64,000 nucleotides of DNA, from assembly GCF_013407925.2 (NCBI RefSeq), contig NZ_CP060201.1, forward strand, positions 1,612,001 through 1,676,000, in the 5' to 3' direction. Shown here piece by piece: positions 28,099 to 52,785 of this stretch (positions within the stretch are counted from its first letter, which is position 1; every line of letters starts with the position of its first letter). The translations under genes were made by a program, and so were the position numbers. Source of the stretch: Pseudomonas protegens (lineage in GTDB: Bacteria; Pseudomonadota; Gammaproteobacteria; Pseudomonadales; Pseudomonadaceae). The notes below the pieces were generated by a model. That model did not search any database and was not told where the DNA came from. It was given only the letters and a program-made list of their open reading frames with translations.

Positions 28099-29451
28099 TC
28101 AGCCATTGCCCCGGTGGCTGAAAAATCGGTTTTCCACCCGTGCCAGCCCCAGGTGTTCACGCAGGCTGCGCCCCGTGTAGCGCTGGCGAAACAGGCCCCG
28201 GCGTTGCAGCTCGGGGGTGATCCATTGCACAAAATCCTCGATGGCCCCCGGCAGGTGGGTGAACAGCACATTGAAGCCATCGGCGGCGTATTCCTCGTAC
28301 CAGCTGGCCATCTCGTCGACGATCTGCCCCGGCGTGCCCACCAGCACCTTGTGCCCGCTGGCGGACAGGCTGCGCAGCAACTGCGCCAGCGTTGGTCGCT
28401 CGCGGCGGACCAGCTCCACCACCAGTTGCCGACGGCTCTTGTGCCGTTCGGTGGACGCCGCATCCGCCAACAGCGGCACCCGGGCGTCCAGCGGCAGGCG
28501 CGACAGGTCGATGCCCAGGTCCAGCAGGTAGGACAGCGCCTTGAGCTGGGCCTGGGGGTCCTGCAACTCCTGCAACTGCTGATACTTTTCCTCGGCTTCG
28601 TTGAGGGTGCGGCCCACCGTGGGGGCGATGCCGGGGAAGATTTTCAACTGCCCGGCATGCCGCCCGTAAGCGGGAAGTCGTTCCTTGAGTTTGCGATAGA
28701 ACGCCTTGGCCTGCTCCAGCTCGACCTGGGCGGTGAACACCAGCTCGGCGCAGCGCGCCGCCAGTTCAGTGCCGGGGCCCGAGGAACCGGCCTGGGCGAT
28801 CACCGGCCAGCCCTGCACCGGCCGGGGTGCGTTCAATGGCCCCTGCACCTGAAAGTGCCGCCCGCGGTGCTGCAACAAGTGCATCCGCTCCGGGCGCAGC
28901 CACTGGCCGCTGGCCTGGTCCCGGGGGAAGGCGTCATCGGCCCAGCTGTCCCACAGGCCGCTGACCACGTCGAAGAATTCCTCGGCGCGGGCATAACGCT
29001 GGGCGTGGCTCATGGGCTCGGGTTGATTGAAGTTCTCGCCGCCGATCAGCCCCGTCACCAGGTTCCAGCCGGCTCGGCCCTCGCTCAAATGATCCAGCGA
29101 GGCGAACTTGCGCGCCAGATTGTAGGGCTCGTTGTAGGTGGTGCTGGCGGTGGCGATCAGGCCGATGTGCCGGGTCACCACCGCCAGGGCCGGCAGCAGG
29201 GTCAGCGGGTCCCAGCGCAAACTGTGGGAACTGCGGGCCAGCACCCGCGGATCAAGGTCCCCCACCGCCACGTTGTCGTTGAGAAACAGCGCGTCGAAAC
29301 AGCCCCGCTCCAGGGTTTGCGCGTAGTGCCGGTAGCGCTGGAAATTCAACGAGGCATCGGCATCCGCCCGGGGATGGCGCCAACTGCCGCCGTGGGCCCC
29401 GGAGCCGGAGAGAAAGGCCCCCAGCCCCATCTGCCCGCCGCGCTCAGCCAC
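28099..29451 (-). CDS. LLM-class flavin-dependent monooxygenase (NtaA/SnaA/DszA family)
   Basis: The 450-residue protein has the FMNH2-dependent monooxygenase signatures of the DszA/NtaA/SnaA group: TLERGCFDALFLNDNVAVG, STTYNEPYNLARKFASLDHLSEGRAGWNLVT split by the expected spacing, and WPVIAQAGSSGPGTELAARCAE. It uses reduced flavin supplied by a separate reductase to oxidise a sulfur- or nitrogen-containing substrate. Its start overlaps the exporter stop by 8 bp, so both are translated from one message. It could tailor the product of the neighbouring CDPS locus or belong to sulfur scavenging like genes further right. Confidence 0.88.
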   Translation of the reverse strand: MAERGGQMGLGAFLSGSGAHGGSWRHPRADADASLNFQRYRHYAQTLERGCFDALFLNDNVAVGDLDPRVLARSSHSLRWDPLTLLPALAVVTRHIGLIATASTTYNEPYNLARKFASLDHLSEGRAGWNLVTGLIGGENFNQPEPMSHAQRYARAEEFFDVVSGLWDSWADDAFPRDQASGQWLRPERMHLLQHRGRHFQVQGPLNAPRPVQGWPVIAQAGSSGPGTELAARCAELVFTAQVELEQAKAFYRKLKERLPAYGRHAGQLKIFPGIAPTVGRTLNEAEEKYQQLQELQDPQAQLKALSYLLDLGIDLSRLPLDARVPLLADAASTERHKSRRQLVVELVRRERPTLAQLLRSLSASGHKVLVGTPGQIVDEMASWYEEYAADGFNVLFTHLPGAIEDFVQWITPELQRRGLFRQRYTGRSLREHLGLARVENRFFSHRGNG

Positions 29452-30871
29452 GGCTGGCGCCCTCCTCGGCCGCCGCCACCGGCAGCGGCGCGGCGCGCAG
29501 CAACAGGCTCACCGCCGTCCACACCAGCAGCGTCGCCAGCGCCAAGAACAGCATCACCCCGCGATAACCGTTGAGAAAGGCGCCCTGGGCATCGTCCAGC
29601 GGCGTCGCGGAAAAGTGGTGGAACAAGCCCACCCCCAGCGCCAACCCGACGCCACCGCCAACGTTGTGCAGGGTCATCAGCGAGCCCATGGCCACCGAGC
29701 CCACTTCCTGAGGCACCGAGGAAATCCCCAGCACCGTCGACGGCCCGAGAATACTGGCCCAGCCCAGGCCCATGATGACGAAGGCCCCCAGCAGATAAGG
29801 CAGTGAAGTCTGGCGATCGAAACCGGCCTGCAACAGCGCCGAGAGCACGAACAGCAGCAACCCGGTCTTGATCAAGAGCGCCGGGCCCTTGCGATCCACC
29901 AACCGCCCCACCAGCGGCGACAGCAACGCCACCCCCAAGGTGGTGGGCAACAACAGCAGGCCGCTGGCCTGCACCGTTTCCCCACGGATCTGCGCCAGGT
30001 ACAGCGGCATGACGAAGAACGCCACGCAGTAGAACAGCGCCAGGCCGAAACTGGCCGCGACCCCGGCGACAAAGCGCCGGTTGGCGAACAGCTTGAGGTC
30101 GATGATCGGCGCCGCGACCCGTCGCTCCACCGCCAGGAACGCCACCAGGGCCAGCAGCGCCAGGGCGATCAGGCTCAGGGTCAGGCGTGAACCCCAGCCC
30201 CAGGCCCCGCCCTGGACGATCACCAGCACCAGGCTCGGCAAGCCGATCAGCAACAGCAAGGCGCCCCAGCCATCCAGCCGCGCACCGGCCTCGGCCGAGT
30301 GCGATTCCTGCACGCTGAAACTGCAGATGCCCAGGCTCAGCAGCACGAAAGGCACGTTGATCAGGAAGATCCACTGCCAGCCAAAACCACTGGTGATCAG
30401 CCCGCCCAGCACCGGCCCGACGGCCAGCCCCACGCCGTTGACTCCGAACAGCACGCCGAAGGCCTTGCCCTGTTCGGCGCTGTCGAAGGTGCTGGAGACA
30501 ATCGCCCCGGAGGCGGTGTAGAGCACCGCGCAGGCCAGCCCCTGGATCACCCGCGCGCCGATCAGGGCGTCGATCTGCGTCGCCAGTCCGGCCGCCAGGG
30601 ACGCCAGGCCGAACACGCTCAGGCCGATGAACAGCACCCGCTTGCGTCCATGCAGGTCGGCCAGGCGTCCCACCAGCACCATGAAACTCGACAGCGTCAG
30701 GATGAAGCCGTTGATCACCCACTGCAGGCTGTCCACCGAGGCCCCGAGATCGGCCTGTAGCGCCGGGAGCGCGGTGTTGACGATGGTGAAATCCACACAG
30801 CCGAGAAAACTGGCGATGCTCACACCGAGCAATGCCCACCACTTGCGTTGCTGTTGCGCAAAAACGCTCAT
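29444..30871 (-). CDS. DHA2-family MFS drug/metabolite exporter
   Basis: The 475-residue transporter has about fourteen spans and the DHA2 (EmrB/QacA) features: FLGCVDFTIVNTALPALQADLG in the first helix, GRLADLHGRKRVLFIG (motif A) and GLAVGPVLGGLITSGFGW (antiporter motif C). It should expel a hydrophobic compound in exchange for protons. It lies between the broken CDPS and the flavin monooxygenase and is the natural exporter or self-resistance gene of that locus; this is inferred from position. Confidence 0.88.
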   Translation of the reverse strand: MSVFAQQQRKWWALLGVSIASFLGCVDFTIVNTALPALQADLGASVDSLQWVINGFILTLSSFMVLVGRLADLHGRKRVLFIGLSVFGLASLAAGLATQIDALIGARVIQGLACAVLYTASGAIVSSTFDSAEQGKAFGVLFGVNGVGLAVGPVLGGLITSGFGWQWIFLINVPFVLLSLGICSFSVQESHSAEAGARLDGWGALLLLIGLPSLVLVIVQGGAWGWGSRLTLSLIALALLALVAFLAVERRVAAPIIDLKLFANRRFVAGVAASFGLALFYCVAFFVMPLYLAQIRGETVQASGLLLLPTTLGVALLSPLVGRLVDRKGPALLIKTGLLLFVLSALLQAGFDRQTSLPYLLGAFVIMGLGWASILGPSTVLGISSVPQEVGSVAMGSLMTLHNVGGGVGLALGVGLFHHFSATPLDDAQGAFLNGYRGVMLFLALATLLVWTAVSLLLRAAPLPVAAAEEGASRG

Positions 30872-30904
30872 GGAAACTCCTTGTCAGTCAAAAAACCGCT
30901 CTGT

Positions 30905-30990
30905 AGGCGCCCGCTTGCCAGCGAACAGGCCCTTGAGTCCTGCATCGCCGGCCAGGGCGCTTTCGCTGGCAAGCCAGCTCCTACATTGAG
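30905..30990. repeat. REP element pair between CDPS and exporter genes
   Basis: Two REP-type palindromes in opposite orientation (core GCTTGCCAGCGAAC, then TTCGCTGGCAAGCCAGCTCC) fill most of the 128-bp gap. They may insulate or stabilise the two parts of the message. Confidence 0.75.
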
Positions 30991-30999
30991 CGCGGTGGG

Positions 31000-31749
31000 T
31001 CAGATGGCGATGGCGCCGCTGGTCCAGTTGGGGTGGATGGCGCCAGGCAAGGTGAACGGAATCGGAATCCCGCGCTTCTTGAACTTCAGCGGCAGCCAGC
31101 GCACCCGGTCCGGGCTGTGGGGTTCGATCAGCAGCTCGCGGCTGGTGGCCATGGCGGTGGTCATCTGCTGCGGATAGAGCACGTAGTGGTAACCCTCGTC
31201 GGCCCACAGCGGCAGGATGATCGGGATCTCTTCCAGGATGTATTCCCGGCACTGGGCCGCCGCCCGTTCGATGTCCGCCTGCTCATCCCGCAGGCGCAGG
31301 CGCTCGGTGAACACGCTGATGGTGCTGTCGATGGCCTAGCGCAATTCCTCGCGCTGCTGATAGATCTGGTCCAGTTGCTGGCGCAGTTCGGCATAGCGGT
31401 CACTGGCCAGCTCCTGGTTCCAGCGGGTGATGTGGTAAGGCACCCGCAGGCCGTCGAGGATGCTCTGGTTGCGCGCCAGCCAGGCATCGCCGTCGCGGAT
31501 CGACGCCGACAACGCCTCGCCGGGGGATTTGCCGTGCTTGTTGTGGCGTTGCAGGGTGTCGGCCACCACCACCTTGACGTGGCTGAAGCCGGACTGGTTG
31601 ATCAGGTGGATGGTGGACCGCAGCTTCTGGTCCTCGTGGTATTCCTGGCCGACGCTGACCGCCAGGACCACGCGCTTGCCGTCGAATTCGTGCTCCTCGC
31701 CGCCCTTGTTGAAGTAGGCCTTGAGGTTGATTTCCTGCACCTTGCTCAT
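31000..31749 (-). pseudogene. tRNA-dependent cyclodipeptide synthase (XYP type), interrupted by in-frame TAG
   Basis: Read through one amber codon at 31336-31338, this frame encodes 249 residues, the usual CDPS length. Residues 1-137 carry the nucleophile region LAVSVGQEYHE (Ser32, matching AlbC Ser37) and the later part carries EYILEEIP (Tyr170, Glu174, matching AlbC Tyr178/Glu182) and YVLYPQQ (Tyr192-Pro193). Gln at the AlbC-40 position with Tyr-Pro defines the XYP subfamily. CDPSs link two aminoacyl-tRNAs into a diketopiperazine. The codon after ELR would become CAG (Gln) by one C-to-T change, so a recent nonsense mutation is likely. The gene starts 4 bp after the oxygenase stop, with GGAG before the ATG. 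Whether it makes product depends on suppression. Confidence 0.85.
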
Positions 31750-31753
31750 GAGT

Positions 31754-32530
31754 TCAGCTCCAGTAGGCCAAAGGCTGGTGTTCGCCGTAGTAACCGATAA
31801 AGACCCCGAGGGTGACCCGGGTGCTGCTGGCCGAGGGGCGGACCGCGTGGATCAGCCGCGGGTTGAGCAGGATCAGGTCGCCGGGCTCGGGCTTGACCAC
31901 GAAGTCCGGCGGCGGCAGCAGGTGGCGCTCGATGCCGTAGGCCCGTTCACCCTTGAGGCGGTTGTACTCCTGCTCGTCGGGCTCGATGCCCCAGATCTCC
32001 AGTTCACCGCCGTCCTCGGGAATCTCCAGGTAGATGTTGGTCGACAGCTGCGTCAGCAACTGCGGGCTGTGGCCCTCGGGGGCATTGCGTTCGAGCTTGT
32101 CGGTGTGGGGCGTGAGATCGACCCCCGAGCCCTGGAAGCGGGCGATGCCGACAAAGCACTTCTGCCCGTCCATCTGCAGCAGGTGCGCGCCCTGGGGCCA
32201 GACCTCGTCGAGCAACAGGCGCAGCTCGTCGATGGGCGAGGCCAGGGGCCGGAACAGGTTGCGGATCTTGCGGATGTTGGGCAGGGCCAGGGCGTGGTAT
32301 TCGGCCCGGCTCTGCTCGTCCTGGATCTCGATATAGGCCTTGCCGACCCGGACGAACTCCTGCTGCTGGCTGAAAGCGCTGCGCAGCTCCTGCCGGTACA
32401 GATGATCCCGCGCCACCTGCAAGGTGTCCGGCGGGCAGAAGCCTTTGAGCTGGACACCATAAGAACGTTTTTCCACGACATCGAGGATATGCCGCGCTTC
32501 AAGTTTGTCGGCGGTAGTGACTGTGAACAT
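31754..32530 (-). CDS. 2-oxoglutarate/Fe(II)-dependent oxygenase, probable cyclodipeptide tailoring enzyme
   Basis: The 258-residue protein shows the facial triad and co-substrate arginine of 2OG-Fe(II) oxygenases: His142 and Asp144 in DLTPHTDKLE, His228 in NPRLIHAVRP and Arg238 in SSTRVTLGVFIGY. It should hydroxylate or desaturate a small molecule using O2 and 2-oxoglutarate. It lies immediately upstream of the CDPS (4 bp gap), so a diketopiperazine substrate is likely, as for the several 2OG oxygenases of bicyclomycin clusters. It is the first gene of the operon, after an AT-rich leader. Confidence 0.85.
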   Translation of the reverse strand: MFTVTTADKLEARHILDVVEKRSYGVQLKGFCPPDTLQVARDHLYRQELRSAFSQQQEFVRVGKAYIEIQDEQSRAEYHALALPNIRKIRNLFRPLASPIDELRLLLDEVWPQGAHLLQMDGQKCFVGIARFQGSGVDLTPHTDKLERNAPEGHSPQLLTQLSTNIYLEIPEDGGELEIWGIEPDEQEYNRLKGERAYGIERHLLPPPDFVVKPEPGDLILLNPRLIHAVRPSASSTRVTLGVFIGYYGEHQPLAYWS

Positions 32531-32822
32531 GCAAGCTCCCTTAATTCCCTGGAAGTAGCGACGAAGTTGCGGTTTTGCAGAAGGTAATAATTTGTTTCAA
32601 AGCCACCTTAGGCAGTTGCGAAAGCCTTGTGAAATATCCTTTATCTCTAATCTCCAAACTTAAAAACGTATCGAAAAACAGGCAAATAGCGGCCATTACC
32701 GACACTTTCGCAAGTACCGACAGAGGATTATTAAATTCGCTGATAGTTAACTTAAAAGAAGCACATCATTGCTCTTTTTTATTCAACACCTCCCGAGCTT
32801 AATTAATAAAATCGCCATCACT
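32531..32822. other. AT-rich promoter region of the CDPS locus, no supported gene
   Basis: These 292 bp lie between two leftward units and are strikingly AT-rich compared with flanking genes. An open frame of 75 codons at 32575-32802 on the plus strand lacks a ribosome site and any recognisable motif. The region must hold the CDPS-locus promoter (leftward) and the end of the SBP transcript. I see no clear inverted repeat. Confidence 0.5.
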
Positions 32823-33809
32823 TCATTCAACTTCATTGAATGAAGCATCCATGTAAGCCGCCGCATCGAACGACTGGTGGATGATGCCTTCTTCACGGTA
32901 CAGATCAGCGGTGTGCTGCACGTCCTCGACCACGGCCGGGCCCACGGCGATGCGCCGGGGCAGCGAGTAGCGATTGGAGCGTTCATGCACCGCCAACGGC
33001 AGGCCGCTGTAACCGGCCTGGATCTTTGAAAACTCGCGCTGGTGCTGGTTGGCCCAGGCATAGGCACGGTCCAGGCGCCGGAGGAAATCGGCGATCTGTG
33101 CCGGTTTGTCACGGATCGCCTGGTCATTGGCCACCAGCAGCATGTGCCCGGCGAACAGCCCCTCGCCACTGACCAGCACCCGGGTGCCACCTTCCATCTG
33201 CACCATGCTGGTGTAGGGGTCCCAGGTCGACCAGGCATCGGCCTGGCCGTTGCTCAGCACACTGCGGGACTCGGCCGGCTGGAGAAAGATGAACTGCGCA
33301 TCCGCGCCGTGCAGGCCCACCGAACGCAGGGCGGCCAGGGCCAGGAAATGGCCGATGGAGCCGCGCGTGGTGGTGATGCGCCGGCCCTTGAGGTCGGCGG
33401 CGCCCCGTAGCGGCGAGTCGTCCTTGACCAGCATGGCCACCGCGGTGGGCGTGACCTTGAGCTTGATCACCCCCACGGTCTTGATCGGCGCCCCGGCGGC
33501 GGCGGCGAACACAAAGGGCGCGTCCCCCAGGCTGCCGATATCCACCGCCCCGGCGGCCAGGGCCTCGGCGGTGGGCGCGGCGGCGGCAAAGGACGCGAAC
33601 TCGATGGGGTACGGCACCTGCTCCAATTCGCCAGCGGCTTCGAGCAGGATCTTCAGCGACTGCTTCTGGCTGGACACCCGCAGCGCCGGCTGCGCCAGGG
33701 CATGGCTGCCGAACAGAAGCAGCGCCAGGATCGCCAGCCGCCGTCTGCTGCGCAGCCGATCGCAGCCTGCGGCAGCGGCTACAGGGTGCTCGCTCGCCTG
33801 CTTGATCAT
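32823..33809 (-). CDS. SsuA/NrtA-like periplasmic substrate-binding protein
   Basis: The 328-residue protein has a signal peptide (LAILALLLFGSHALA-QP) and the NMT1/SsuA-type fold cues: FASFAAAAPTAEALAAGAVDIGSLGDAPFVFAAAAG split over the usual positions, RGSIGHFLALAAL, QADAWSTWDPYTSMVQ. Such proteins bind sulfonates, taurine, nitrate or similar anions. It is the last gene of the exported amine-oxidase operon, 3 bp after the TonB receptor. Its first residues (about 9-17) are encoded by a REP-like sequence, and no alternative start exists between them and the signal peptide. No permease is adjacent; the ABC genes at 45984-47587 are the nearest candidates. Confidence 0.85.
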   Translation of the reverse strand: MIKQASEHPVAAAAGCDRLRSRRRLAILALLLFGSHALAQPALRVSSQKQSLKILLEAAGELEQVPYPIEFASFAAAAPTAEALAAGAVDIGSLGDAPFVFAAAAGAPIKTVGVIKLKVTPTAVAMLVKDDSPLRGAADLKGRRITTTRGSIGHFLALAALRSVGLHGADAQFIFLQPAESRSVLSNGQADAWSTWDPYTSMVQMEGGTRVLVSGEGLFAGHMLLVANDQAIRDKPAQIADFLRRLDRAYAWANQHQREFSKIQAGYSGLPLAVHERSNRYSLPRRIAVGPAVVEDVQHTADLYREEGIIHQSFDAAAYMDASFNEVE

Positions 33810-33812
33810 CGT

Positions 33813-36281
33813 TCAGAACGCCAGGCTGACGCGGCTGTAGTAGTAGCCGCCGCCCAGTCCATAAGGCGAGAACATCCCGTATTCATAGGTCCCCGCCCAG
33901 GCCTTGAGGCCGATCTTGTCCGGGTACACGTCGAACAGGTTGTTGGCGCCCACGGCCACGGTGAGGTTCTGGGTCACGTCGTAGGCCACGTCCAGGTCGG
34001 TGATCCACTTGGCGCTGTAGGTACGGTCGTTGGCCGGGATGTTCGAGCCTTCGGTGTACTCGCCAAAGCGGGTCAGCTGCAGGTTGGTGGTCCAGTCGCC
34101 GACCTTGTAGTTAGTGGAGAGGATCCACTTGTCCTTGGGCGTGGATTTAGTCAGGTCGATCTGCTGCTGACGGTCGAACAGCACATAACCGGCCCCCAGG
34201 CGCGACAGGGCCGCCGGGGTGTCCGCCAGGTCGCGGATGCTGGTCTTGTTGTGGTTGTAGGCGACGCTCCATTTGGCCGTGCCGTACTCGCCGAACGACT
34301 GGCTGTAATCGGCCACCAGGTCGACGCCCTTGGTCCGGGTATCGGCGGCGTTGGTGTAGTACTGCCCGGCGAGGTTCGGCGACAGGCCGTTCTCCACCAG
34401 GATCTGCGACACCGCCGGGCCCTTGAGGATGCCGGTCTGGAGGATGCGCTTGTCGATGTCGATCAGGTAGAAGTCGGCGGTCAGACGCAGGCGCTCGGTG
34501 GGTTCGGCGGTGAAGCCCAGGCTGTAGTTGCGCGAGGTTTCCGGCTCCAGGTCCTTGGCCCCCAGGGCAATGGCTTCCGGCGAGTTGGGGCGCATCTGTT
34601 TGGTGCGCACCGAGCTGGTGGTGCCGCCCGCGCCGAACTGGGTCACGGTGCTGGTGGTGGAGAACACGCTCTGGGCCAGGGACGGCGCGCGGAAGCCGTT
34701 GCTCACCGCCGCGCGCACCGCGTAGCCGGGGAGGAACTCGTAGCGCGTGGTCAGCTTGCCGCTGGTGGTATCGCCCACCCCGAGGTTGTACTTCTCATAG
34801 CGCGCCGCCGCGCCGACGTACCAGTTGGGGGTGATGTTCAGGCCGAAATCCACATAGGCGGCTTCGCTGTGACGCTTGAGGCTGTAGGCGTCTTCCGGGG
34901 TGGTGCCGTTGACCGAGAACAGTCCCGGGTCCGGCACCACGCCGGCGAAGGGGCCGGTGGCCGGGACGTAGCTGCCCTGGTTGTAGGAGTTGGGTTCGCC
35001 CTCCTCCAGCGCGTATTTCTCCCAGCGGTATTCGACCCCGAACGAAGTCTCCAGCGGGCTGCTCCAGCCGATGTCCAGGGCCCGGGAGAAGTCCAGGTTG
35101 TTGGTCCACTGGTCGAACACCAGATTGCCCAGGTGGAAGTCGTGCTGAGTGTAGGGGCCGTTGGAAATGTTCAGGTTGTTGGCGGTGTCCAGCACCCCGC
35201 GGTCCTTGCCATAGGTGCTCGACAGGTCCCAATCCCAGCCGCCCGCCAGGCCCTTGGCGCCACCGGCGACCTGGAAGTCGGTCTCGCGGATCTCGCGCCG
35301 CGCCTGGCCGCCGTTGGGGTACGGCGCATTGGGCACCCCCGCCAGGCTGGTGATGTCGGTGGGCTTGCGGTGGCCCAGGTTCTTGTTGCTGTTGCGGTAG
35401 CTCAGGGTCGAAAACGAATACAGCTTGAGGTCGTCGGCCAGGGGCAGCTCGGCGTTGTAGGCCAGGCTGGTGGTGCGGTCGCGGCCCAGGCCGTATTCGG
35501 TGCCCCAGCCCTGGCGATTGCTTTCTCGCGGGTCCGGCGAGCCGTCGGCCTGTTTGAAGTACAGCTGGCCGCTGGCGGCGCTGGAGCGCTCGTAGGGTTC
35601 CTGGAGCTTGGCGTCCCAGGACAGGTTGAAGAAGCCGCCGTCCTCCCCCAGCTTGTTGCCCCAGTTGAAGGCCTCGTGGCCGGTGGTGCCGTCACCGTCG
35701 TAGTACTGGCCAAGGGTGGTGTCCGAGGTCAGGCCCTCGGCGTTGCGCTTGAGGATGATGTTGATCACCCCGGCGATGGCGTCGGAGCCGTACTGCGCGG
35801 CGGCGCCGTCGCGCAGCACTTCGATGCGCTCGATGGCGGCGGTGGGAATCAGGTCCAGGTCCACCGGCACCGAGGCGTTGCCGACCCGCGCACCGTTGTT
35901 GATCAGCGCCGAGTTGTGCCGGCGCTTGCCGTTGATCAACACCAGCACCTGATCGCCGCCCAGGCCGCGCATGCTCACCCCGCGCACCAGGAACGCCGTG
36001 CCGCCGCCGTTGATGGTGGGGACGTTGAACGACGGCAGCAGGCGCCCGAGCATTTCTTTCAGGCCGTTCTGACCGATGCTGCGCAGCTGTTCGCTGTCGA
36101 TCACATCGATCGGCGCCGGGCTGTTGGTGACGGTGCGCTGCTGGCTGCCGCGCACGCCGGTGACCACCACGGTGCCGAGGGTTTCATCGGCGGCCAGCAA
36201 CTCCACCGGGGTTGCCAGGCTCAGCAGGCCAAGGCTCAGGGGCGCGGCGCCGAGGACGATTTTATGCAAGGACATACTCAT
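33813..36281 (-). CDS. TonB-dependent outer-membrane receptor, ligand unknown
   Basis: The 822-residue receptor has a signal peptide, a TonB-box-like ETLGTVVVTG, a plug domain (PIDVIDSEQLRSIG, SMRGLGGDQVLVLINGKRRH, RIEVLRDGAAAQYGSDAIAG) and a barrel ending in RVSLAF with the terminal Phe. The plug wording is that of the broad 'iron complex/other solute' group rather than of siderophore receptors. It stands in one operon with amine oxidase, RidA and a sulfonate-type binding protein, so an organic amine or sulfur compound is a better guess than iron. No Fur box is evident. Confidence 0.85.
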   Translation of the reverse strand: MSMSLHKIVLGAAPLSLGLLSLATPVELLAADETLGTVVVTGVRGSQQRTVTNSPAPIDVIDSEQLRSIGQNGLKEMLGRLLPSFNVPTINGGGTAFLVRGVSMRGLGGDQVLVLINGKRRHNSALINNGARVGNASVPVDLDLIPTAAIERIEVLRDGAAAQYGSDAIAGVINIILKRNAEGLTSDTTLGQYYDGDGTTGHEAFNWGNKLGEDGGFFNLSWDAKLQEPYERSSAASGQLYFKQADGSPDPRESNRQGWGTEYGLGRDRTTSLAYNAELPLADDLKLYSFSTLSYRNSNKNLGHRKPTDITSLAGVPNAPYPNGGQARREIRETDFQVAGGAKGLAGGWDWDLSSTYGKDRGVLDTANNLNISNGPYTQHDFHLGNLVFDQWTNNLDFSRALDIGWSSPLETSFGVEYRWEKYALEEGEPNSYNQGSYVPATGPFAGVVPDPGLFSVNGTTPEDAYSLKRHSEAAYVDFGLNITPNWYVGAAARYEKYNLGVGDTTSGKLTTRYEFLPGYAVRAAVSNGFRAPSLAQSVFSTTSTVTQFGAGGTTSSVRTKQMRPNSPEAIALGAKDLEPETSRNYSLGFTAEPTERLRLTADFYLIDIDKRILQTGILKGPAVSQILVENGLSPNLAGQYYTNAADTRTKGVDLVADYSQSFGEYGTAKWSVAYNHNKTSIRDLADTPAALSRLGAGYVLFDRQQQIDLTKSTPKDKWILSTNYKVGDWTTNLQLTRFGEYTEGSNIPANDRTYSAKWITDLDVAYDVTQNLTVAVGANNLFDVYPDKIGLKAWAGTYEYGMFSPYGLGGGYYYSRVSLAF

Positions 36282-36306: not shown

Positions 36307-36804
36307 TCAGCGCGCTCGGGCGGCGACGGTTTCGACTTCGATCAGGGCACCGGGCAGTACCAGCCCCGCCACTTGCACCGTGGTCCGGGCGGGTTTGAGC
36401 GGCTGTTTCTCGGTGCCGAAGAACTCGCGAAAGGCCACTTGCAGGCCGTCGAAATCCAGCTTGCCGCCCAGGGCCGGGTCGCCCACCAGGTAGATCCGCA
36501 GTTGCACCACATCCCCCAGGGTCAAACCCTGGCTGGCGAGGATCGTTTGCACCTTGCGCAGCACCTCGCGGGCCTGGCTCTCGGTGTTGCCCACGGCGTG
36601 GATCTGCTCCTTGGGCGCCTTGGGGTCCAGCGGATCCGGCAGCAGGCCGGAGAGGTAGGTCACCTCGCTGTTGGCGGGCAAGGTCACCGATTGCAGGATC
36701 GGCGAATGGGGATAGCTGGACGGCACGCGCTGGATGCCCGCGGCCCAACTGCTGCTGGCGGCGCACAACAGCCCCAGCCCTACGACGGTGTTTTTCAAAG
36801 ACAT
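36307..36804 (-). CDS. periplasmic RidA/YjgF-family protein
   Basis: The 165-residue protein has a signal peptide (MSLKNTVVGLGLLCAASSSWAA) before a RidA domain (about 25-163). It keeps the family's functional Arg140 (KPARTTVQVAG) and Glu156 (IEVETVA), so enamine/imine deaminase activity is likely. Export is unusual for the typical cytosolic RidA. The upstream gene encodes an exported amine oxidase that would produce imines, so this protein probably hydrolyses them in the periplasm. The start at 36804 is chosen because it begins the signal peptide. Confidence 0.85.
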   Translation of the reverse strand: MSLKNTVVGLGLLCAASSSWAAGIQRVPSSYPHSPILQSVTLPANSEVTYLSGLLPDPLDPKAPKEQIHAVGNTESQAREVLRKVQTILASQGLTLGDVVQLRIYLVGDPALGGKLDFDGLQVAFREFFGTEKQPLKPARTTVQVAGLVLPGALIEVETVAARAR

Positions 36805-36892
36805 GCAAAGACGCTCCAAGGTTGTGTTTGCCAGCCTCGGAGGTCCGCTACCCGGCAATGGGTGACTGCTGTTTTATGAGTGCTCGGCTTTT

Positions 36893-38470
36893 TCAGGCCG
36901 TTTGCTGTAGCGACGAGCCTTGCGCCCGTTGAAAAAGGTGCCGCACCACCCGCCGCGCGGCGCCGGCGGCGGCTTCCTGCCAGATGCCCACGCCGCTGTG
37001 GGCCAAGCCGTCGCTGGTCAGGTAGACCCGGCCCTGGGGCTGGTTGAGCAGGCTGTAGTCCGGCTCGGCCACTTCATGGCTGATCCACGGGCCGAAGTTG
37101 TAGGGGATCTTGCCCCAGGCAATCACCAGCGGCTTGCGCAGTTCATGGCTGTGGCCGGGGTGCAGCAGCTCCACCGCCTGACGGGAAATCTCGATCTGCT
37201 GGGCCAGGGTTTTCTCCCCGAAGCGGCGCGCGGTTTCACCGTTGTTGTAGGCCGCCACCAGCACCCCCTCGGCCTGGTTGAACCCGCCGCTGGGGTACCA
37301 CAGCCCGGAGGCTTCCTGGTTGATGAACGACAGCCCGCCATAGATCTGGTACTGGCTTTCCCAGAAGCGCCGCGACTGCCAGGCCACCTTGTTGGCGTAG
37401 CCGAACTGCACCGCGCCGATGGCCTGGCGCACCGGAGCGCTGAAGTTGTTCTCGACCTTGGCCAGCAGCGGCAGGGGCAAGGAACTGATCACGTAGTCGG
37501 CCTTGAGGCTCTGGGTGCGGCCGCTGCGCCGGTCCAGGTAGACCACTTCGACGCTGTCGCTGTGATTGGTGATCGAACGCACCTCGCTGTGCAGCCGCAA
37601 CTGCCCCTGCAGACGCCGGGCAAAGGCCTGGGGGATGCGGTCCATGCCGCCCACCGGCTGGAACATGGTGGGCGAGAATTCCGGGTATTCATCGATCATC
37701 AGCGCCGTGGTCAGCGCCGGGTTGAGCAGGGTCTGCAACGGCAGCGGGTCGTTCTTCTGCGCCAGCTGGTCGCCGGCACCGGGCCAGACCTTGTAGCCGG
37801 AGCGGGCCGAGCCCAGGTATTCCAGCTTGTCCGAGAGATCGCCCCAGGTTTTCAGGAAGCTCAGCAAGTTGCTGCGATCGGCCGCCGTCAGTTCCTGATC
37901 CAGGGCATGCCGGTTGACCGCCTTGGCCAGCAACTCGGAAAAGTGCCCGCGGCTGTCGTTGACCGCCTGACGGATCTGCAACGCCGGCTGGTTCAGGTCC
38001 GGGCGCACCAGGGCATTGCGACTGGTGTTGACCAGCACTTCCAGCTCCACCCCCAGTTCGCGGCAGTAGCCGAGCATCAACTGGTGGTGGCTGGGCAGAC
38101 GGCCGGCCCCGGCATTGAGGTAGAAGCCGTCATCGAACTCCGCGACCTGCACACTGCCGTCGCTGTACTCCACCCGATCGCCGCCGCGCACCGTCCAGTT
38201 GCGCCCGCCGACCCGGTCCCGGGCTTCCAGCAGCGTGACCTTGAACCCGGCCTTGTTCAGTTCATAGGCACTGACCAGGCCACCGATCCCGGCGCCGATC
38301 ACCACCACCGAAGCGCCCTTGCCCACGGCGGCTGCGGGCAGCGACGCATAGTTTTCCTCGAAGGCCTCGGCCTTGCCCGAACCGCCGAACAGGCCCATGA
38401 CCGCACTCGCCGCCTGGACCCCGCCGACAGCGGCGATACGGGCGATCAATTGTCTTCTGGTCAGTGGCAT
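36893..38470 (-). CDS. Tat-exported flavin amine oxidase (L-amino-acid/monoamine oxidase family)
   Basis: The 525-residue protein begins with a twin-arginine signal (TRRQLIARIAAVGGVQ). The FAD-binding GAGIGG motif (residues 59-64) is followed by EARDRVGGR, and the C-terminal QGRVYLTSDGLAHSGVGIWQEAA resembles the flavin-closing segment of amine oxidases. It should oxidise a primary amine or amino acid in the periplasm, giving imine, H2O2 or reduced quinone. It is the first gene of the operon with RidA, receptor and binding protein. Tryptophan 2-monooxygenase-like or LAAO roles are alternatives. Confidence 0.85.
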   Translation of the reverse strand: MPLTRRQLIARIAAVGGVQAASAVMGLFGGSGKAEAFEENYASLPAAAVGKGASVVVIGAGIGGLVSAYELNKAGFKVTLLEARDRVGGRNWTVRGGDRVEYSDGSVQVAEFDDGFYLNAGAGRLPSHHQLMLGYCRELGVELEVLVNTSRNALVRPDLNQPALQIRQAVNDSRGHFSELLAKAVNRHALDQELTAADRSNLLSFLKTWGDLSDKLEYLGSARSGYKVWPGAGDQLAQKNDPLPLQTLLNPALTTALMIDEYPEFSPTMFQPVGGMDRIPQAFARRLQGQLRLHSEVRSITNHSDSVEVVYLDRRSGRTQSLKADYVISSLPLPLLAKVENNFSAPVRQAIGAVQFGYANKVAWQSRRFWESQYQIYGGLSFINQEASGLWYPSGGFNQAEGVLVAAYNNGETARRFGEKTLAQQIEISRQAVELLHPGHSHELRKPLVIAWGKIPYNFGPWISHEVAEPDYSLLNQPQGRVYLTSDGLAHSGVGIWQEAAAGAARRVVRHLFQRAQGSSLQQTA

Positions 38471-40572: not shown

Positions 40573-41766
40573 CTAACCAGCGCTAGCGGCCTGCGCCGCA
40601 GCCAGCACCCGCAGCAGATTCCCACCCCAGATCTTCGCCAGATCCGCTTCGCTGTAACCCGCCGCCAGCAGGCGTTCGGTGATTTGCGGTAGCTGCGTCA
40701 CATCCTCCAGCCCCTGCACCCCGCCGCCGCCATCCCAGTCGGCACCGATGCCCACATGGTCCGGCCCCACCACGTCAAGGATGTGCAGCAGGTGGCGCAT
40801 GTAGTCGTCCAGGCTGGCCCTGGGCTGCGGGTAACGCGCCTCGACCTGACGAATCCGCTCGGCCAGGTCCGCCACCTGCGCGGGGCTCAGGCTCGCCGCC
40901 AGGCGGAACTCGCGGTACAGCGGTCCCAGGGCCTTGTCGCGCTCGGGGTTGGGCACGCGCTCGATCAGGTCGCTGGGGAAGCTGTTGACCTGCACCACTC
41001 CGCCCCTGGCCGCCAGCTGGCGCAGGCGCTGGTCATCCAGGTTGCGCGGATGGGCGGTGATCGCCCGGCTGCTGGAGTGCGAGGCAATGATCGGCGCCCT
41101 GGACAGCGCCAGGACCTGGTCGAATACCTGATCCGAGGCATGGGACACATCCAGCAGGATGCCCAGGCGATTGGCCTCGGCCACCAACTCGCGCCCCGCC
41201 GGGCTCAGGCCGTGCCACTGCGGCAGGGCGGTGGCCGAGTCGGCGAAATCGTTGTTGGCCGAGTGCACCAGGCCGAGCATGCGCAGGCCCTGGCGGTAAT
41301 AGGTGTGCAAGCGGGCCGGGTCGGCGGCCAGGGGCTCGGCGTTTTCCATGCTGATGAACACCACCCGCTGGCCACGGGCGACGATGGCCGTTACATCGCT
41401 GGCCTTGAGGGCCAGGGCGAAGTCATCGGGGTGGGCGGCGATCAGGTCGCGGATCCGCGCCAGCACCGCCAGCCCATGTTCGCTGGCCAGGGTCCGGCCC
41501 TCGGCGTTGAGCGGCCCCTGGGGGGTGAAGATGGCCCAGAAGCCGCCGTCCAGGCCGCCCTCTTTCATCCGTGGCAGATCGACCTGGGACAGATCGTCCC
41601 GGTAGTCGTGGCGCTGGGTGATGTCCCAACCGGGGCGGGCCAGTTGCATCGGGGTATCGAGGTGGCTGTCGAGCACCGTCAGGCGCTGGTGCAACGATTG
41701 CGCCGGGCTGGCGGCCAGCGCCCAGGGGCTGACCAGCGCCAGGCAGAGCAAGGTTCGAGAAAACAT
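40573..41766 (-). CDS. M19-family (membrane/renal) dipeptidase, exported
   Basis: The 397-residue protein has a signal peptide (MFSRTLLCLALVSPWALAA) and the M19 zinc site: His35 and Asp37 in DSHLDTP, Glu in SMENAEP, His in LVHSANND and His in IIASHSSSRAI. It should cleave dipeptides, including cysteinylglycine-like and D-residue-containing ones, in the periplasm. It ends the leftward sulfur/organic-acid cluster, separated from the SBP gene by a REP pair. It converges on the AbiE-like operon with a 13-bp gap. Confidence 0.88.
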   Translation of the reverse strand: MFSRTLLCLALVSPWALAASPAQSLHQRLTVLDSHLDTPMQLARPGWDITQRHDYRDDLSQVDLPRMKEGGLDGGFWAIFTPQGPLNAEGRTLASEHGLAVLARIRDLIAAHPDDFALALKASDVTAIVARGQRVVFISMENAEPLAADPARLHTYYRQGLRMLGLVHSANNDFADSATALPQWHGLSPAGRELVAEANRLGILLDVSHASDQVFDQVLALSRAPIIASHSSSRAITAHPRNLDDQRLRQLAARGGVVQVNSFPSDLIERVPNPERDKALGPLYREFRLAASLSPAQVADLAERIRQVEARYPQPRASLDDYMRHLLHILDVVGPDHVGIGADWDGGGGVQGLEDVTQLPQITERLLAAGYSEADLAKIWGGNLLRVLAAAQAASAG

Positions 41767-41807
41767 CGGGCCTCCTGGCCAATCAAAGAAATCGCCCCAC
41801 CTGACCG

Positions 41808-41888
41808 TAGGAGCTGGCTTGCCAGCGAAGGCGGCCCCGAGATCGATGCAAGGCTCAAGGGCCTATTCGCCGGCAAGCCAGTTCCTAC
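41808..41888. repeat. REP element pair
   Basis: Two oppositely oriented REP palindromes (GTAGGAGCTGGCTTGCCAGC, then TTCGCCGGCAAGCCAGTTCC) occupy the gap between the M19 dipeptidase and SBP genes. Confidence 0.75.
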
Positions 41889-41894
41889 AAGGGG

Positions 41895-42857
41895 TCAGGA
41901 CCAGTGGAAGCTGCGGTCCCACAGGCCGGAAACATCCAGTTGCTGGGGCAGGACGCCGGCTTCGAAGAACAGGTCGGCAACGTCCTGCTGGGATTTCACC
42001 GCCGCGTCGTCCACCGGTTGCAGCAATCGCGGGCCGCTTTGGGCGCGGTACTGGGCGAGGAACACTTCGCGCGGCATGCCGAGGATCTGCGCGCTCTTGG
42101 TCGCCCATTCCTCGGGGTGGCTGGCGATCCATTGCCAGGCGCGGTACTCGCGCAGGATGTAGTCGGTGATCGCCGCGTGCTTGAGCGGGTTGGCAATGCT
42201 GTTCTGGTTGGCGGCGATCACGTAGTTGCCGGACAGGTAGCCCTGGCCGGTCTTCAGCACCCGGGCCCCGGCCCGCAGTTCCGCCAGCTGGATGAAGTAG
42301 CCGAAGCTGACCCAGGCATCCAGGGCGCCGTTCTGGAAGGCGGCGAAACCGTCTTGCGGGGTCAGCGCCATGGGCACGATGTCGGCAAAGCCCAGGCCCT
42401 GTTCCTTCAGCGCCTTGAGCAGAAAGTAGTGCGAGCTGGTGGAGCGGATATAGCCGATGCGCTTGCCCTTGAGCTCGGCCACCGACTGCACCGCTGAGCC
42501 CTTGGGCACGATGAAGGCCTGGTTGTTGACGTCGCCGGTGAGCACCGCGATCAGCTTCACCGGGGCCTGGTTCTTGATGCCGAAGATCGGCGGGATCTCG
42601 CTCATCGGCGAGATGTCCAGGGTGCCGCTGACCAGGGCCTCGAAGCTCAGGTTGCCGCCGGTGAACTCGGCGTACCTGACCTTGTAGGGCGGCGGCTCGA
42701 TGCCCGCCTCGGCAAAGAAGCTCGGCGCCGCGCCCTTGTAGGTGGCGACGTTCAGGGTGACCCCGGACAGATCCACGGCGGCCCCCAGGCCCAGGCGCGG
42801 CAAGGCGGCGGCCAGACCGGCCAGGGCCGAGAGTTGGAGAAAGTGACGACGCTGCAT
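41895..42857 (-). CDS. SsuA/TauA-like ABC substrate-binding protein
   Basis: The 320-residue protein starts with a Tat-like signal (RRHFLQLSALAG) and has the NMT1/SsuA architecture (FTGGNLSFEALVSGTLDISPMSEIP in two halves, GKRIGYIRSTSSHYFLLKAL, AFQNGALDAWVSFG). It should capture a sulfonate or sulfur-containing anion for the ABC genes at 45984-47587. It is 12 bp downstream of the aldolase gene. The window holds a second such binding protein at 32823, only distantly similar, so two related ligands may be taken up. Confidence 0.85.
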   Translation of the reverse strand: MQRRHFLQLSALAGLAAALPRLGLGAAVDLSGVTLNVATYKGAAPSFFAEAGIEPPPYKVRYAEFTGGNLSFEALVSGTLDISPMSEIPPIFGIKNQAPVKLIAVLTGDVNNQAFIVPKGSAVQSVAELKGKRIGYIRSTSSHYFLLKALKEQGLGFADIVPMALTPQDGFAAFQNGALDAWVSFGYFIQLAELRAGARVLKTGQGYLSGNYVIAANQNSIANPLKHAAITDYILREYRAWQWIASHPEEWATKSAQILGMPREVFLAQYRAQSGPRLLQPVDDAAVKSQQDVADLFFEAGVLPQQLDVSGLWDRSFHWS

Positions 42858-42869: not shown

Positions 42870-43679
42870 TTAATCGAGAAAATCCGCTTCTTCGCGCACG
42901 ATCCGCTCGCGGTAAGGCTGGAAACTGAACCAGCCACCGAACTCGCTGCCGACCTGGCGCGCGGTGTGGCGCGCCACCTCGTGGGGAATCAGTCGCGGGG
43001 TGCCGGCGGCTTCCGCCAGCAGTTGGGTCTGGGCGGCGTTGTCCATGGCGATGAAGCGCCACACCGCCGCTTCGACGGTTTCGCCCACGGTCAGCAGGCC
43101 GTGGTTCTGCAGGATCAGCGCCTTGTGCCCCTGCAACGCGGCGGCGATCCGCGCGCCTTCGCTGGCCTCCAGCACCACCCCGGAGAAGTTGTCGAACAGC
43201 CCGTGCCTTTCATAGAAAGCGCAGGCGTCCTGGGTCAGCGGATCCAGCAGACGGCCCAGGCTCGACCAGGCCTTGCCATGCAGCGAATGGGCATGGGCCG
43301 CGGCCACCACCTCGGGATGGGCCTCGTGCAACGCCGCGTGAATGGCGAACGCGGCGAGGTTCAGCGCGCCCTCGCCTTCGATCACCGCCCCTTGGGGATT
43401 GACCAGCAGCAGGTCCGACACTCGCACATGGCCGAAATACACCCCCACCGGGTTGACCCAGAAATGGTCCGGGCGCCCGGGGTCGCGCACGGTGATATGC
43501 CCGGCACCGCCCATGTCGAAGCCCAGCCGGGCGAACACCCGGAAAGCCGCGGCCAGGCTTTGCTTGCGCTGCCGACGCTCCAGCTCGACCGTCGCCTGCT
43601 GGGGCGGGTGCTCCCAGCGAAACACCGTATGGCCATCGCGGGGCAAGTCATACACCGCGGGACGAAAATGTGCGGTCAT
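42870..43679 (-). CDS. class II aldolase/adducin family protein
   Basis: The 269-residue protein has the metal site of the family: AAAHAHSLHGKAWSSLG (His-x-His) and LILQNHGLLTVGETVEAAV (third His). It is unlike the aldolase at 24496 outside these motifs. The start at 43679 (MTAHFRPAV) is chosen because AAGGAGA lies 8 nt upstream; a start at 43709 has no such site. It stands between the SBP and the 2-hydroxyacid dehydrogenase genes, suggesting a hydroxy-acid cleavage or decarboxylation step. Substrate is unknown. Confidence 0.85.
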   Translation of the reverse strand: MTAHFRPAVYDLPRDGHTVFRWEHPPQQATVELERRQRKQSLAAAFRVFARLGFDMGGAGHITVRDPGRPDHFWVNPVGVYFGHVRVSDLLLVNPQGAVIEGEGALNLAAFAIHAALHEAHPEVVAAAHAHSLHGKAWSSLGRLLDPLTQDACAFYERHGLFDNFSGVVLEASEGARIAAALQGHKALILQNHGLLTVGETVEAAVWRFIAMDNAAQTQLLAEAAGTPRLIPHEVARHTARQVGSEFGGWFSFQPYRERIVREEADFLD

Positions 43680-43788
43680 GTCCGCTCTCCTTGAAGTTGT
43701 CATCAACACCCTGTGCGAAAAGGCCTGCTGGGCCTTGCTTGGCGATCTCCCGCCGAACCTTTAGCGACCTCAAGCCCCCTGCGTCTCC

Positions 43789-43846: not shown

Positions 43847-44782
43847 TCAGTAGCCACGCTGGATCTCCACCGGGTTTTCCAGGGGCAAGCCATCGCTCCA
43901 GCGCTGCAGATTGCGCCCCAGCAAGCGGGCGATATTCAGGTAGACCCGTGGCGAGTTGGCCGAGGTGTGGGGCGACAGGCGAATCCGTGGATGGCGATAG
44001 AACGCGTGGCCCGCGGGCAGCGGTTCGGGGTCGGCCACGTCCAGGCTGGCCAGGCCGATGCGCCCCCTATCCAGGGCCTGCAACAGCGCCGGCTGATCGA
44101 TCAGCGCGCCACGGGCGATATTGATCAGGTGCAGCCCGGGCTTGGCCGCCGCCAGGACATCGGTGTCGATGATCCGCCGGGTGTGCTCGGTCAGAGGCAC
44201 CGCCAGCAGCAGGTGATCGGCGCGGGCAAACAGTTGATGCAGGTCGGCCACCGGTTGAACCCCGGGCACCTCAAACGGCTGCGCCGAACGGCGCAGGGCC
44301 AGCACCTGCATGCCCAGGGCCAGGGCCTTGGGCGCCAGTTCGCGGGCAATGCTGCCAAAGCCGAACAGCCCCAGGGTGCTGCCGGCCACCGAGGCCAGCG
44401 GCCGTTGCTGCCAGTGTTCGGCGTGCTCGATCCACACCTGGGGCAGTTGCTTGGCGGCGGCGAAGATCGCCGCCAGGGCAAACTCGGCAATGCTCTCGGC
44501 GGTGCTACCCCGGGCGCTGGCCACCGGCAGATCCTGGAACAGCCACCGGGGAAAATAATCCAGGCCCGAGGTCACCAATTGCACGAAGCCCAAACCGAAG
44601 GGCCAGCCCGCGGGCGGCTCTGGCGCATCACGAAAATCAGCGTGGGGCGCGGCCAGCAGCACCTGCACATCTCCCGGCAGCGCACGGGGCAGACCCCGGG
44701 GCAGGCTCAGTACCTCGACACCCGGCAGCCACTGGCGCAGTTGCTGGTTGAAGGCTTCATCCAACTGGCTGGCAATGCGCAT
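43847..44782 (-). CDS. D-isomer-specific 2-hydroxyacid dehydrogenase
   Basis: The 311-residue enzyme has the NAD-binding STLGLFGFGSIARELAPKA region (GxGxxA variant), catalytic Arg in INIARGALID, Glu in VADPEPLP and His in LSPHTSA. It should reduce or oxidise a 2-hydroxy/2-keto acid. Its ATG at 44782 overlaps the upstream stop by one base (TGATG), proving operon structure; the upstream in-frame extension is Arg/Pro-rich and non-coding. It is likely the redox partner for keto-acids made by the amine oxidase or released by the aldolase. Confidence 0.88.
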   Translation of the reverse strand: MRIASQLDEAFNQQLRQWLPGVEVLSLPRGLPRALPGDVQVLLAAPHADFRDAPEPPAGWPFGLGFVQLVTSGLDYFPRWLFQDLPVASARGSTAESIAEFALAAIFAAAKQLPQVWIEHAEHWQQRPLASVAGSTLGLFGFGSIARELAPKALALGMQVLALRRSAQPFEVPGVQPVADLHQLFARADHLLLAVPLTEHTRRIIDTDVLAAAKPGLHLINIARGALIDQPALLQALDRGRIGLASLDVADPEPLPAGHAFYRHPRIRLSPHTSANSPRVYLNIARLLGRNLQRWSDGLPLENPVEIQRGY

Positions 44783-46763: not shown

Positions 46764-46765
46764 GG

Positions 46766-48642: not shown

Positions 48643-48748
48643 TCTTTTTTCGCATAATAAATGACTGGAAAAATGTTCGAGAAGAATAATACCTTTTAGC
48701 TCGCCCGTGTAGTTCGCGTCATTTGCCTTGTGTCCACGGAGGGAGCCC

Positions 48749-52781: not shown

Positions 52782-52785
52782 ACGA

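Follow-up and report, generated by a model that had tools for sequence, protein, structure and literature searches.

A conserved oxygenase, cyclodipeptide synthase and exporter cassette in Pseudomonas protegens and its possible use under sulfur shortage

What does a pseudomonad make with a cyclodipeptide synthase (CDPS) and a single oxygenase, and when would it make it? The question is raised by a 64,000-nucleotide stretch of Pseudomonas protegens DNA (assembly GCF_013407925.2, contig NZ_CP060201.1, positions 1,612,001 to 1,676,000), called the window here and numbered from its first letter. The host genome measures 6.8 Mb, and its named near relatives are Pseudomonas, including P. protegens FD6 (locus L076). 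On the minus strand at 28099-32530, open reading frames (ORFs) together with Pfam and NCBIfam searches gave the order 2-oxoglutarate (2OG)-Fe(II) oxygenase (OX), CDPS, exporter of the major facilitator superfamily (MFS) and luciferase-like monooxygenase (LLM), confirming the four genes that an earlier sequence-only reading of this DNA had described. We put at roughly 55% the probability that OX, CDPS and MFS are a small natural-product cassette that makes and exports oxidised cyclo(Leu-Glu), is used under sulfur shortage and stands in a locus of sulfur-acquisition type. The core consists of the following elements.

31754..32530, minus strand: 2OG-Fe(II) oxygenase, OX (Pfam WelO5 46.3 bits, 2OG-FeII_Oxy_3 31.8 bits; WelO5 fold)
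31000-31749, minus strand: whole CDPS gene, including an in-frame stop
31339..31749, minus strand: N-terminal part of CDPS, 137 residues, with the catalytic Ser (TIGR04539 24.4 bits, under the cut-off of 45; 93-100% identity to CDPS of close relatives L047-L058)
31336..31338, minus strand: in-frame TAG within CDPS, seen in frame and as 1 TAG inside the profile match
31000..31335, minus strand: C-terminal CDPS remnant, 111 residues, which would hold Y170, E174 and Y192-P193 (89-100% identity to CDPS of L047-L058)
29444..30871, minus strand: DHA2/EmrB-type MFS exporter (TIGR00711 245 bits, cut-off 230)
28099..29451, minus strand: LLM flavin monooxygenase of the NtaA/DmoA family, accessory (TIGR03860 538 bits, cut-off 280)

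Four bases separate OX and CDPS, and MFS and LLM overlap by 8 bases. The frames of OX, MFS and LLM are open in the window, as are those of a binding protein and a receptor encoded upstream.

The order of the first three genes recurred in other bacteria. We scanned 84,980 species genomes with a CDPS alignment by way of two short peptide patterns, a scan that sees only relatives carrying these patterns. The patterns matched 104 stretches, 63 of which were confirmed as CDPS loci. In 41 of the 63 named loci, CDPS stood between an immediately preceding OX and an immediately following MFS, with order and orientation preserved. These loci came from 23 pseudomonads, 16 Actinomycetota (11 Nocardia, 3 Gordonia, 1 Williamsia and 1 Mycolicibacterium) and 2 Burkholderiaceae (1 Burkholderia and 1 Paraburkholderia). 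MFS thus followed CDPS in every OX-CDPS locus (41/41), and an order shared this widely across two phyla is far from what chance would give. Several loci among L047-L066 and L076-L112 share genomes, and each set was counted separately. Within the genus, we searched 398 genomes for OX, LLM and the receptor. OX matched in 106 of them and reached at least 47% identity in 23; CDPS stood beside OX in 22 of those 23, the exception being L068, with a cut OX and no CDPS.

LLM was less constant. A near full-length match lay downstream of MFS in 16 of the 23 pseudomonad loci and a remnant in one (L080). LLM reached at least 70% identity in 19 of the 398 genomes, 18 with OX and one (G102, 72%) without. 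An LLM of another subfamily (MsnO8) followed MFS in 3 of the 16 actinobacterial loci; it was broken in one of them, L115, where the frame-broken gene was not searched whole. These MsnO8-type proteins had no significant similarity to the LLM family of the window. That a four-gene order recurs with unrelated LLMs favours a linked role, but does not argue for LLM as a set step of the biosynthesis. The co-occurrence expected by the sequence-only reading therefore held for the first three genes, and its placing of LLM as a pathway enzyme found little support: the true unit is OX-CDPS-MFS, with LLM as an accessory.

The remaining 22 of the 63 loci came from Photorhabdus (5), Legionella (4) and metagenome-assembled genomes of other groups (13). 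All five Photorhabdus loci (L099, L100, L102, L103 and L105) kept MFS and carried an unrelated 2OG enzyme (PF03171/PF14226) at the OX position, and a relative of that enzyme was found beside or near CDPS in two of the four Legionella loci (L120 and L121) and in one of the 13 metagenome-assembled genomes (L123). Two unrelated 2OG families are thus paired with this CDPS branch. L117, L120, L121 and L123 add AMP-binding-type and class V aminotransferase genes.

The product was predicted from the active site of the intact copies. A profile of 13 intact CDPS copies had as its nearest solved chain Nbra-CDPS of Nocardia brasiliensis (5MLQ, E 4.6e-79). Papers given by PMC number are cited here for their accessible text, in which the residue set published for XYP enzymes is S/Y/E/Y plus P203 (PMC13062777). 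Among 62 CDPS rows (L134, too short, was left out), S32 was present in 62, Y170 in 60, E174 in 61 and Y192-P193 in 61; the misses were the frame-broken L094 and, for Y170, additionally L128. Nbra-CDPS makes cyclo(Ala-Glu) (cAE), and its L32A and L32G variants form cyclo(Leu-Glu) (cLE) while making less cAE (PMC13062777), in line with a rule by which Ala at this pocket residue means cLE and Leu means cAE (PMC5816076). At the S199 position of Nbra-CDPS, in the Glu cleft, a change to Leu lowered Glu use (PMC13062777). Among the 41 cassette loci, the equivalent of Nbra L32 (position 2 of pocket P1) was Ala in 20 copies, namely those of all the pseudomonads that share the window's type (20/20 cLE-type rows), and Leu in the other 21. 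The S199 position was Ser or Thr in all 40 readable cassette copies, L094 being frame-broken there, and was Thr in all 19 readable cLE-type pseudomonad rows. Because the key pocket residue is Ala, the change that shifted Nbra-CDPS toward cLE, the rule-based prediction is cyclo(Leu-Glu) in the window's clade and cyclo(Ala-Glu) in the other cassette copies; the assignment to the cLE group is made on two pocket positions, not on the whole pocket motif. This group was reportedly defined by Jacques in 2015.

The predicted cAE and cLE types were also compared in trees. L094 was left out of the three-gene trees for its frame-broken CDPS. Relative to the deepest divergence within the cLE set, the distance separating the cAE and cLE sets was 3.7-fold for OX, 7.4-fold for CDPS and 1.7-fold for MFS. 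In held-clade tests, grouping the cAE set with L088-L091 was rejected by OX (p 0.001) and CDPS (p 0.0002), and MFS rejected a grouping of the cAE set with Burkholderia (p 0.024). Trees holding all pseudomonads together were not rejected by OX (p 0.24) or CDPS (p 0.60), a cLE clade of its own was compatible with MFS (p 0.30), and the test with the TonB receptor gave no rejection (p 0.21). A swap of the OX and CDPS pair between cAE- and cLE-type pseudomonads was thus suggested and is unproved.

The cassette CDPS copies are easily overlooked, because their PF16715 scores (25.4-39.8 bits) hover around the cut-off of 27. Eight of ten directly searched relatives exceeded it (27.4-39.8 bits); L065 scored 25.4, and the fragment taken from L122 gave no PF16715 match. 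We dropped the idea that some family members escape PF16715: a genome scan had returned 15 of the 22 Pseudomonas loci, limited by the number of scored candidates, and in a direct search six of the seven unreported loci (L054, L055, L056, L060, L061 and L063) were at or over the cut-off, the seventh being frame-broken.

In this strain, the CDPS is interrupted. The TAG at 31336-31338 splits the frame so that the N-terminal part keeps the catalytic Ser and the equivalents of Y170, E174 and Y192-P193 fall in the C-terminal remnant; the residues beyond the TAG are unmade, and most catalytic residues are lost. Neither half matched any Pfam model at E 0.001, and only the N-terminal half touched TIGR04539 (24 of 45 bits). 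Read through its one stop, the gene scored 30.2 bits with PF16715, compared with 27.4-32.2 bits in intact relatives. Over the 248 codons of both halves, the relative L048 differs by 19 synonymous changes and no non-synonymous one. Because neither half has a non-synonymous change, the lesion appears to be either very young or a sequencing error. As it stands, the cassette in this genome cannot work. Intact CDPS copies are present in close relatives, and in ten relative pairs the ratio of non-synonymous to synonymous substitution rates (dN/dS) for CDPS was 0.09-0.25.

Damage to the locus was also seen elsewhere: CDPS is frame-broken in L059/L094 (one strain), OX is frame-broken in L067, read in two frames in L116 and cut in L068, where CDPS is missing as well, the receptor and binding protein are truncated in L091, and LLM is frame-broken in L115.

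We then considered what the oxygenase would do. The metal triad H142-x-D144...H228 and R238 are intact in OX, and H-x-D...H and the Arg were found in 24 of 24 rows. The fold is that of WelO5, with 17-23% identity to the WelO5 halogenases and to 3W20/3W21. The latter are the N-acyl amino acid dioxygenase SadA. WelO5 halogenases have Gly in the metal triad, whereas OX has Asp there (a WelO5 G166D variant exists). A halogenase reading was rejected, as all 24 rows have HxD where the halogenase has HxG. Because Asp replaces the Gly of WelO5, OX is expected to be a hydroxylase or desaturase. A second WelO5-like oxygenase family, with at most 39% identity to OX, is common in Pseudomonas; 83 of the 106 OX-matching genomes have only such weaker or short matches, and the loci L069-L072 and L074 of this family have no adjoining CDPS of the present family.

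The neighbourhood upstream of OX contains uptake and sulfur-type genes.

32531..32822, minus strand: OX operon promoter region, with a block at 32626-32650 conserved across nearer relatives in the alignment
32823..33809, minus strand: SsuA-family substrate-binding protein (TIGR01728 205.5 bits, cut-off 163.5)
33813..36281, minus strand: TonB-dependent outer-membrane receptor (family searches)
36307..36858, minus strand: RidA-like protein with an apparent signal peptide by eye (family search)
36893..38470, minus strand: FAD amine oxidase whose N terminus looks twin-arginine-like by eye (PF01593 131.5 bits)
40573..41766, minus strand: M19 membrane dipeptidase with an apparent signal peptide by eye (PF01244 345 bits)
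41895..42857, minus strand: second SsuA-like binding protein (TIGR01728 158.9 bits, slightly below the cut-off of 163.5)
42870..43709, minus strand: class II aldolase (PF00596)
43847..44875, minus strand: D-2-hydroxyacid dehydrogenase (PF02826)
44782..45987, minus strand: acyl-CoA-dehydrogenase-fold protein, nearest SfnB and under the cut-off (TIGR04022 102.7 of 430.9 bits)
45984..47587, minus strand: ABC importer, with an SsuB-like ATPase at about 45984-46766 and a permease, by reading only, at 46766-47587
47755..48789, minus strand: LysR-type regulator (none over the cut-off among the best 25 of 44 families)
49375..50958, plus strand: four-domain rhodanese (PF00581, 4 stretches)

The binding protein was found upstream of OX in all 23 pseudomonad loci, as a remnant only in L091 and split in L087, and 22 of the 23 also had the receptor, which is truncated in L091; the locus L078 runs into the end of its contig. 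At 74% identity or above, the receptor occurred in 21 of the 398 genus genomes, all 21 with an OX-CDPS locus, and the next class stood at 59%. The cAE-type pseudomonads L110-L112 keep TonB-SBP-OX-CDPS-MFS intact (SBP, substrate-binding protein), though they have little other neighbourhood in common. One of the two Burkholderiaceae cassettes (L122, Burkholderia sp. D-99) reads TonB-OX-CDPS-MFS-TonB, and 6 of the 16 actinobacterial cassettes have a complete Nik/Opp-type ABC importer downstream. Overall, an importer of one of three types adjoins 29 of the 41 cassettes, L091 with its truncated receptor included.

The proteins of this locus are poor in sulfur-containing residues. The 16 entries from LLM to rhodanese, with CDPS counted as two pieces, contained 1.30% Cys plus Met, compared with 2.71% in 11 other nearby proteins, among which we counted the LysR gene and a gene pair at 38773-40559. 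The background was 3.1% in 32 window ORFs outside 28-51 kb and 3.5% in 87 ORFs of other Pseudomonas loci; these ORFs were chosen by codon-position score, and the actinobacterial background includes importer genes and doubtful ORFs. OX averaged 0.70% in the 20 cLE-type pseudomonads (1.16% in the window) and 0.07% in 15 of the 16 actinobacterial copies, 12 of which had none and three a single Cys or Met besides the start. L116, with OX in two frames, was left out here, as was L108, with MFS in two pieces, from the MFS rows, so that 15 of 16 actinobacterial proteins were counted in each case. Pseudomonas OX paralogues contained 4.8-6.0% (eight readings of seven genes, two readings being the same gene; three of the 11 readings, L040, L043 and L044, were on the wrong strand and uncounted). 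Six MFS paralogues contained 3.1-4.9%, against 2.1% in the pseudomonad and 1.1% in the actinobacterial cassette MFS. Importer proteins at three actinobacterial loci had 0.2-2.0%, and two actinobacterial LLMs had 0 and 1 Cys/Met residue. As a control, TauA, TauB and TauC encoded downstream of the P. ovata cassette gave 0.0, 0.8 and 2.1%. Little or no depletion was seen in Photorhabdus (CDPS 5.1%, MFS 4.2%) or in Legionella CDPS (3.7%).

In Gordonia, oxygenases raised under sulfur limitation contain 0.9-1.3% Cys plus Met compared with 3.0% in the proteome, and such poverty is broadly observed (PMC7661421). The low Cys and Met content of the cassette proteins therefore suggests, on sequence grounds, that they carry the mark of a sulfur-starvation regulon and that the Pseudomonas and actinobacterial cassettes would be expressed when sulfur is short. 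The neighbours fit this reading: the SsuA-like proteins, the SsuB-like ATPase, the SfnB-like protein, the rhodanese and LLM. The accessible main text of two sulfur-response papers (Gordonia and Rhodococcus) and of a Pseudomonas root-exudate paper does not mention a cyclodipeptide (PMC7661421, PMC8557817, PMC8079746). The conserved OX promoter block occurred once in the window and once in the genome with at most 3 mismatches, and a block in the amine-oxidase promoter was likewise single in the genome; no sulfur-type motif was shared between them and no regulon was traceable.

Taken together, these data suggest the following course in intact relatives. An XYP-type CDPS would join Leu-tRNA and Glu-tRNA into cyclo(Leu-Glu), and the single 2OG-Fe(II) enzyme would oxidise it, most economically on the Glu half, because this half is common to the cLE- and cAE-type relatives. 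The DHA2 pump would then export the oxidised, sulfur-free cyclic dipeptide. The cassette would be made when sulfur is short, and in Pseudomonas it is set among the TonB receptor, SsuA-like proteins, LLM monooxygenase and rhodanese; the neighbouring importers might retrieve the product, or a sulfur source gained with its help. The TAG would stop production in this strain, and the uptake genes stay open. An extension of this course, which we consider distinctly improbable, is a 'thiophore' cycle, in which cyclo(Leu-Glu), exported by sulfur-starved cells in a hydroxylated or desaturated form, picks up thiols or other reduced sulfur compounds and re-enters via the TonB receptor and SsuA-like protein (via the Nik/Opp-type importer in some Actinomycetota), after which LLM cuts the C-S bond and so releases the sulfur. 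If true, a tRNA-made compound common to two phyla would do for sulfur what siderophores do for iron.

Several observations weigh against the main reading, beginning with the break in this strain's CDPS. The substrate of OX may be a free amino acid, as isoleucine dioxygenase is its weak NCBIfam match (40 of 500 bits). Receptors of the TonB type at other loci are equally poor in Cys and Met (0.1-0.8% in nine of ten readings, several of the loci being sulfur-type), and so the receptors add little to the sulfur case. Depletion of CDPS is moderate in cLE-type pseudomonads (1.3%) and Actinomycetota (1.8%) and absent in cAE-type pseudomonads (3.0%), and OX, CDPS and MFS of Burkholderia are hardly depleted (2.1, 3.4 and 2.7%). 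No LLM was found downstream in 6 of the 23 pseudomonad loci. Finally, 8 of 10 other Pseudomonas loci have TonB, binding protein and LLM grouped in the absence of OX-CDPS, so that the three may be neighbours of the cassette, not partners. Four of those eight (L162, L163, L165 and L168) also hold SfnB-like, rhodanese and LysR relatives. Having no OX-CDPS-MFS, these four might represent a parent arrangement of the window locus.

We weighed this reading against other explanations of the same genes. The oxidised Glu-containing diketopiperazine might be a metallophore: having bound a metal outside, it would be taken back up by way of the TonB receptor and binding protein, or of the Nik/Opp-type importer in actinobacteria. 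The receptor and binding protein directly upstream in pseudomonads would suit such a role, as would the two receptors around L122 and the six complete Nik/Opp-type importers. Moreover, alpha-hydroxycarboxylates are known metal ligands, and a 4-hydroxy-Glu side chain would be one. Against this, many non-metal ligands are known for SsuA- and Nik/Opp-type binding proteins, and the Cys/Met depletion points to sulfur limitation and not to metal limitation. Fur-, NikR- and Zur-like boxes, sought with consensus sequences and single-base shuffles, did not rise above the shuffled controls in two promoter regions. We regard a metallophore as unlikely; the same idea has been voiced for Burkholderia (PMC5767969). 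Equally doubtful is an antibiotic or signal made incidentally under sulfur stress, exported by MFS, with the TonB, SsuA and LLM genes serving organosulfur uptake only. The invariably kept DHA2 exporter and the eight cassette-free loci would agree with this, and no importer was matched near 10 of the 16 actinobacterial cassettes, including those of the N. brasiliensis type. Such a role would leave unaccounted for a receptor that, at 74% identity or above, is confined to locus-bearing genomes and flanks cLE- and cAE-type pseudomonad cassettes alike.

Simple decay, in which the cassette is being lost and is meaningless in this strain, seems rather improbable. The TAG and the independent breaks in L059/L094, L067, L068 and L116 are what it would predict, but the dN/dS values show purifying selection in relatives, and the window CDPS halves have no non-synonymous change from L048. 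A reduced bicyclomycin-like pathway with fewer oxygenases would share CDPS, 2OG enzyme(s) and MFS with the present cassette. We give it hardly any weight: a single 2OG enzyme and no P450 were found among the 20 ORF pieces scanned at 26.3-47.4 kb, the CDPS groups with Nbra-CDPS and is predicted to make cLE instead of cyclo(Ile-Leu), and OX resembles WelO5. A bicyclomycin-type cluster proper was rejected, as its defining five 2OG dioxygenases and one P450 are lacking.

Other features of the window adjoin the locus. The amine oxidase (36893-38470), RidA-like protein (36307-36858) and M19 dipeptidase (40573-41766) suggest a periplasmic processing set beside the receptor. The gene pair at 38773-40559 (plus strand), between the amine oxidase and the M19 dipeptidase, had no Pfam match at 1e-5 and no NCBIfam match at 1e-10; its second gene reads nucleotidyltransferase-like, and by eye an AbiE-like pair is possible. 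It was matched in L077 and L052/L081 (one genome) and was not at the same place in L076 and L079. REP-like (repetitive extragenic palindromic) repeats, named by eye, lie in the CDPS/MFS gap (30872-30999) and upstream of the M19 gene (41767-41894). A FecR-like regulator and a second TonB-receptor-like ORF at 51819-55462 (plus strand), also named by eye, are perhaps a separate siderophore-type unit. A plasmid collection gave no near match.

The neighbourhood itself has been in print for some time. A CDPS-2OG dioxygenase neighbourhood was noted in Pseudomonas fluorescens and Burkholderia sp. 383 in 2010 (PMC2922099), and a Burkholderia operon of CDPS, single oxygenase and siderophore pump in 2018 (PMC5767969); both are probably the same cassette as OX-CDPS-MFS. 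In their accessible text, these papers describe the neighbourhood only and give neither a product nor a sulfur link. A survey of 37 Pseudomonas genomes found CDPS clusters in two and one XYP cyclodipeptide prediction, with nothing further in the text available (PMC8704066). The suggestion that the diketopiperazine was apparently undescribed is therefore weakly supported at best: the gene neighbourhood was in print, and no product was found as far as the literature was searched. In that literature, mostly papers open without subscription, we did not find a product, a sulfur link, a dedicated receptor or SsuA-type protein, or a cyclo(Leu-Glu) prediction for this cassette.

The bicyclomycin cluster bcmA-G,T, known from Gram-negatives and Actinobacteria, combines CDPS with five 2OG enzymes, a P450 and MFS (PMC5930311) around a cyclo(Ile-Leu) core. 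The window cassette differs in having one 2OG enzyme, no P450 seen and a predicted cyclo(Leu-Glu). The sequence-only reading was right to separate a compact pathway of CDPS, single 2OG oxygenase and exporter from bicyclomycin, and its expectation of a different diketopiperazine agrees with our prediction. Its frame was too narrow, however, as it missed the receptor, the binding protein and the sulfur context, and the cassette of this genome is unable to work in its present state. With the sulfur-starvation loci ssu, tau, sfn and msu, the window shares SsuA-family binding proteins, an SsuB-like ATPase, LLM, an SfnB-like protein, rhodanese and Cys/Met-poor proteins; it differs in containing a natural-product cassette, a combination that we did not find described in the literature searched. 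Should the cassette prove to be part of the sulfur-starvation response, a CDPS natural product would be tied to sulfur nutrition in biocontrol pseudomonads as well as in Nocardia, Gordonia and Mycolicibacterium, a link likewise not found there.

Among the closest known systems is the Nbra-CDPS cassette (CDPS structures 5MLQ, 9I5M, 9IAJ-9IAM). It has an XYP-type, Glu-using CDPS, and the N. brasiliensis loci L106 and L107 share the OX-CDPS-MFS order. It differs in its pocket residue, Leu (cAE) there and Ala in the window's clade (predicted cLE), in an OX only 41% identical in L106 and in having no TonB or SsuA match. The accessible text on Nbra-CDPS describes the CDPS and makes no mention of an oxygenase or exporter (PMC13062777). 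The Nocardia enzyme is among the structurally best-studied of its kind, yet the literature searched did not tell us what its product is for; an answer that can be tested directly is offered by the conserved neighbours and the Cys/Met poverty of the cassette.

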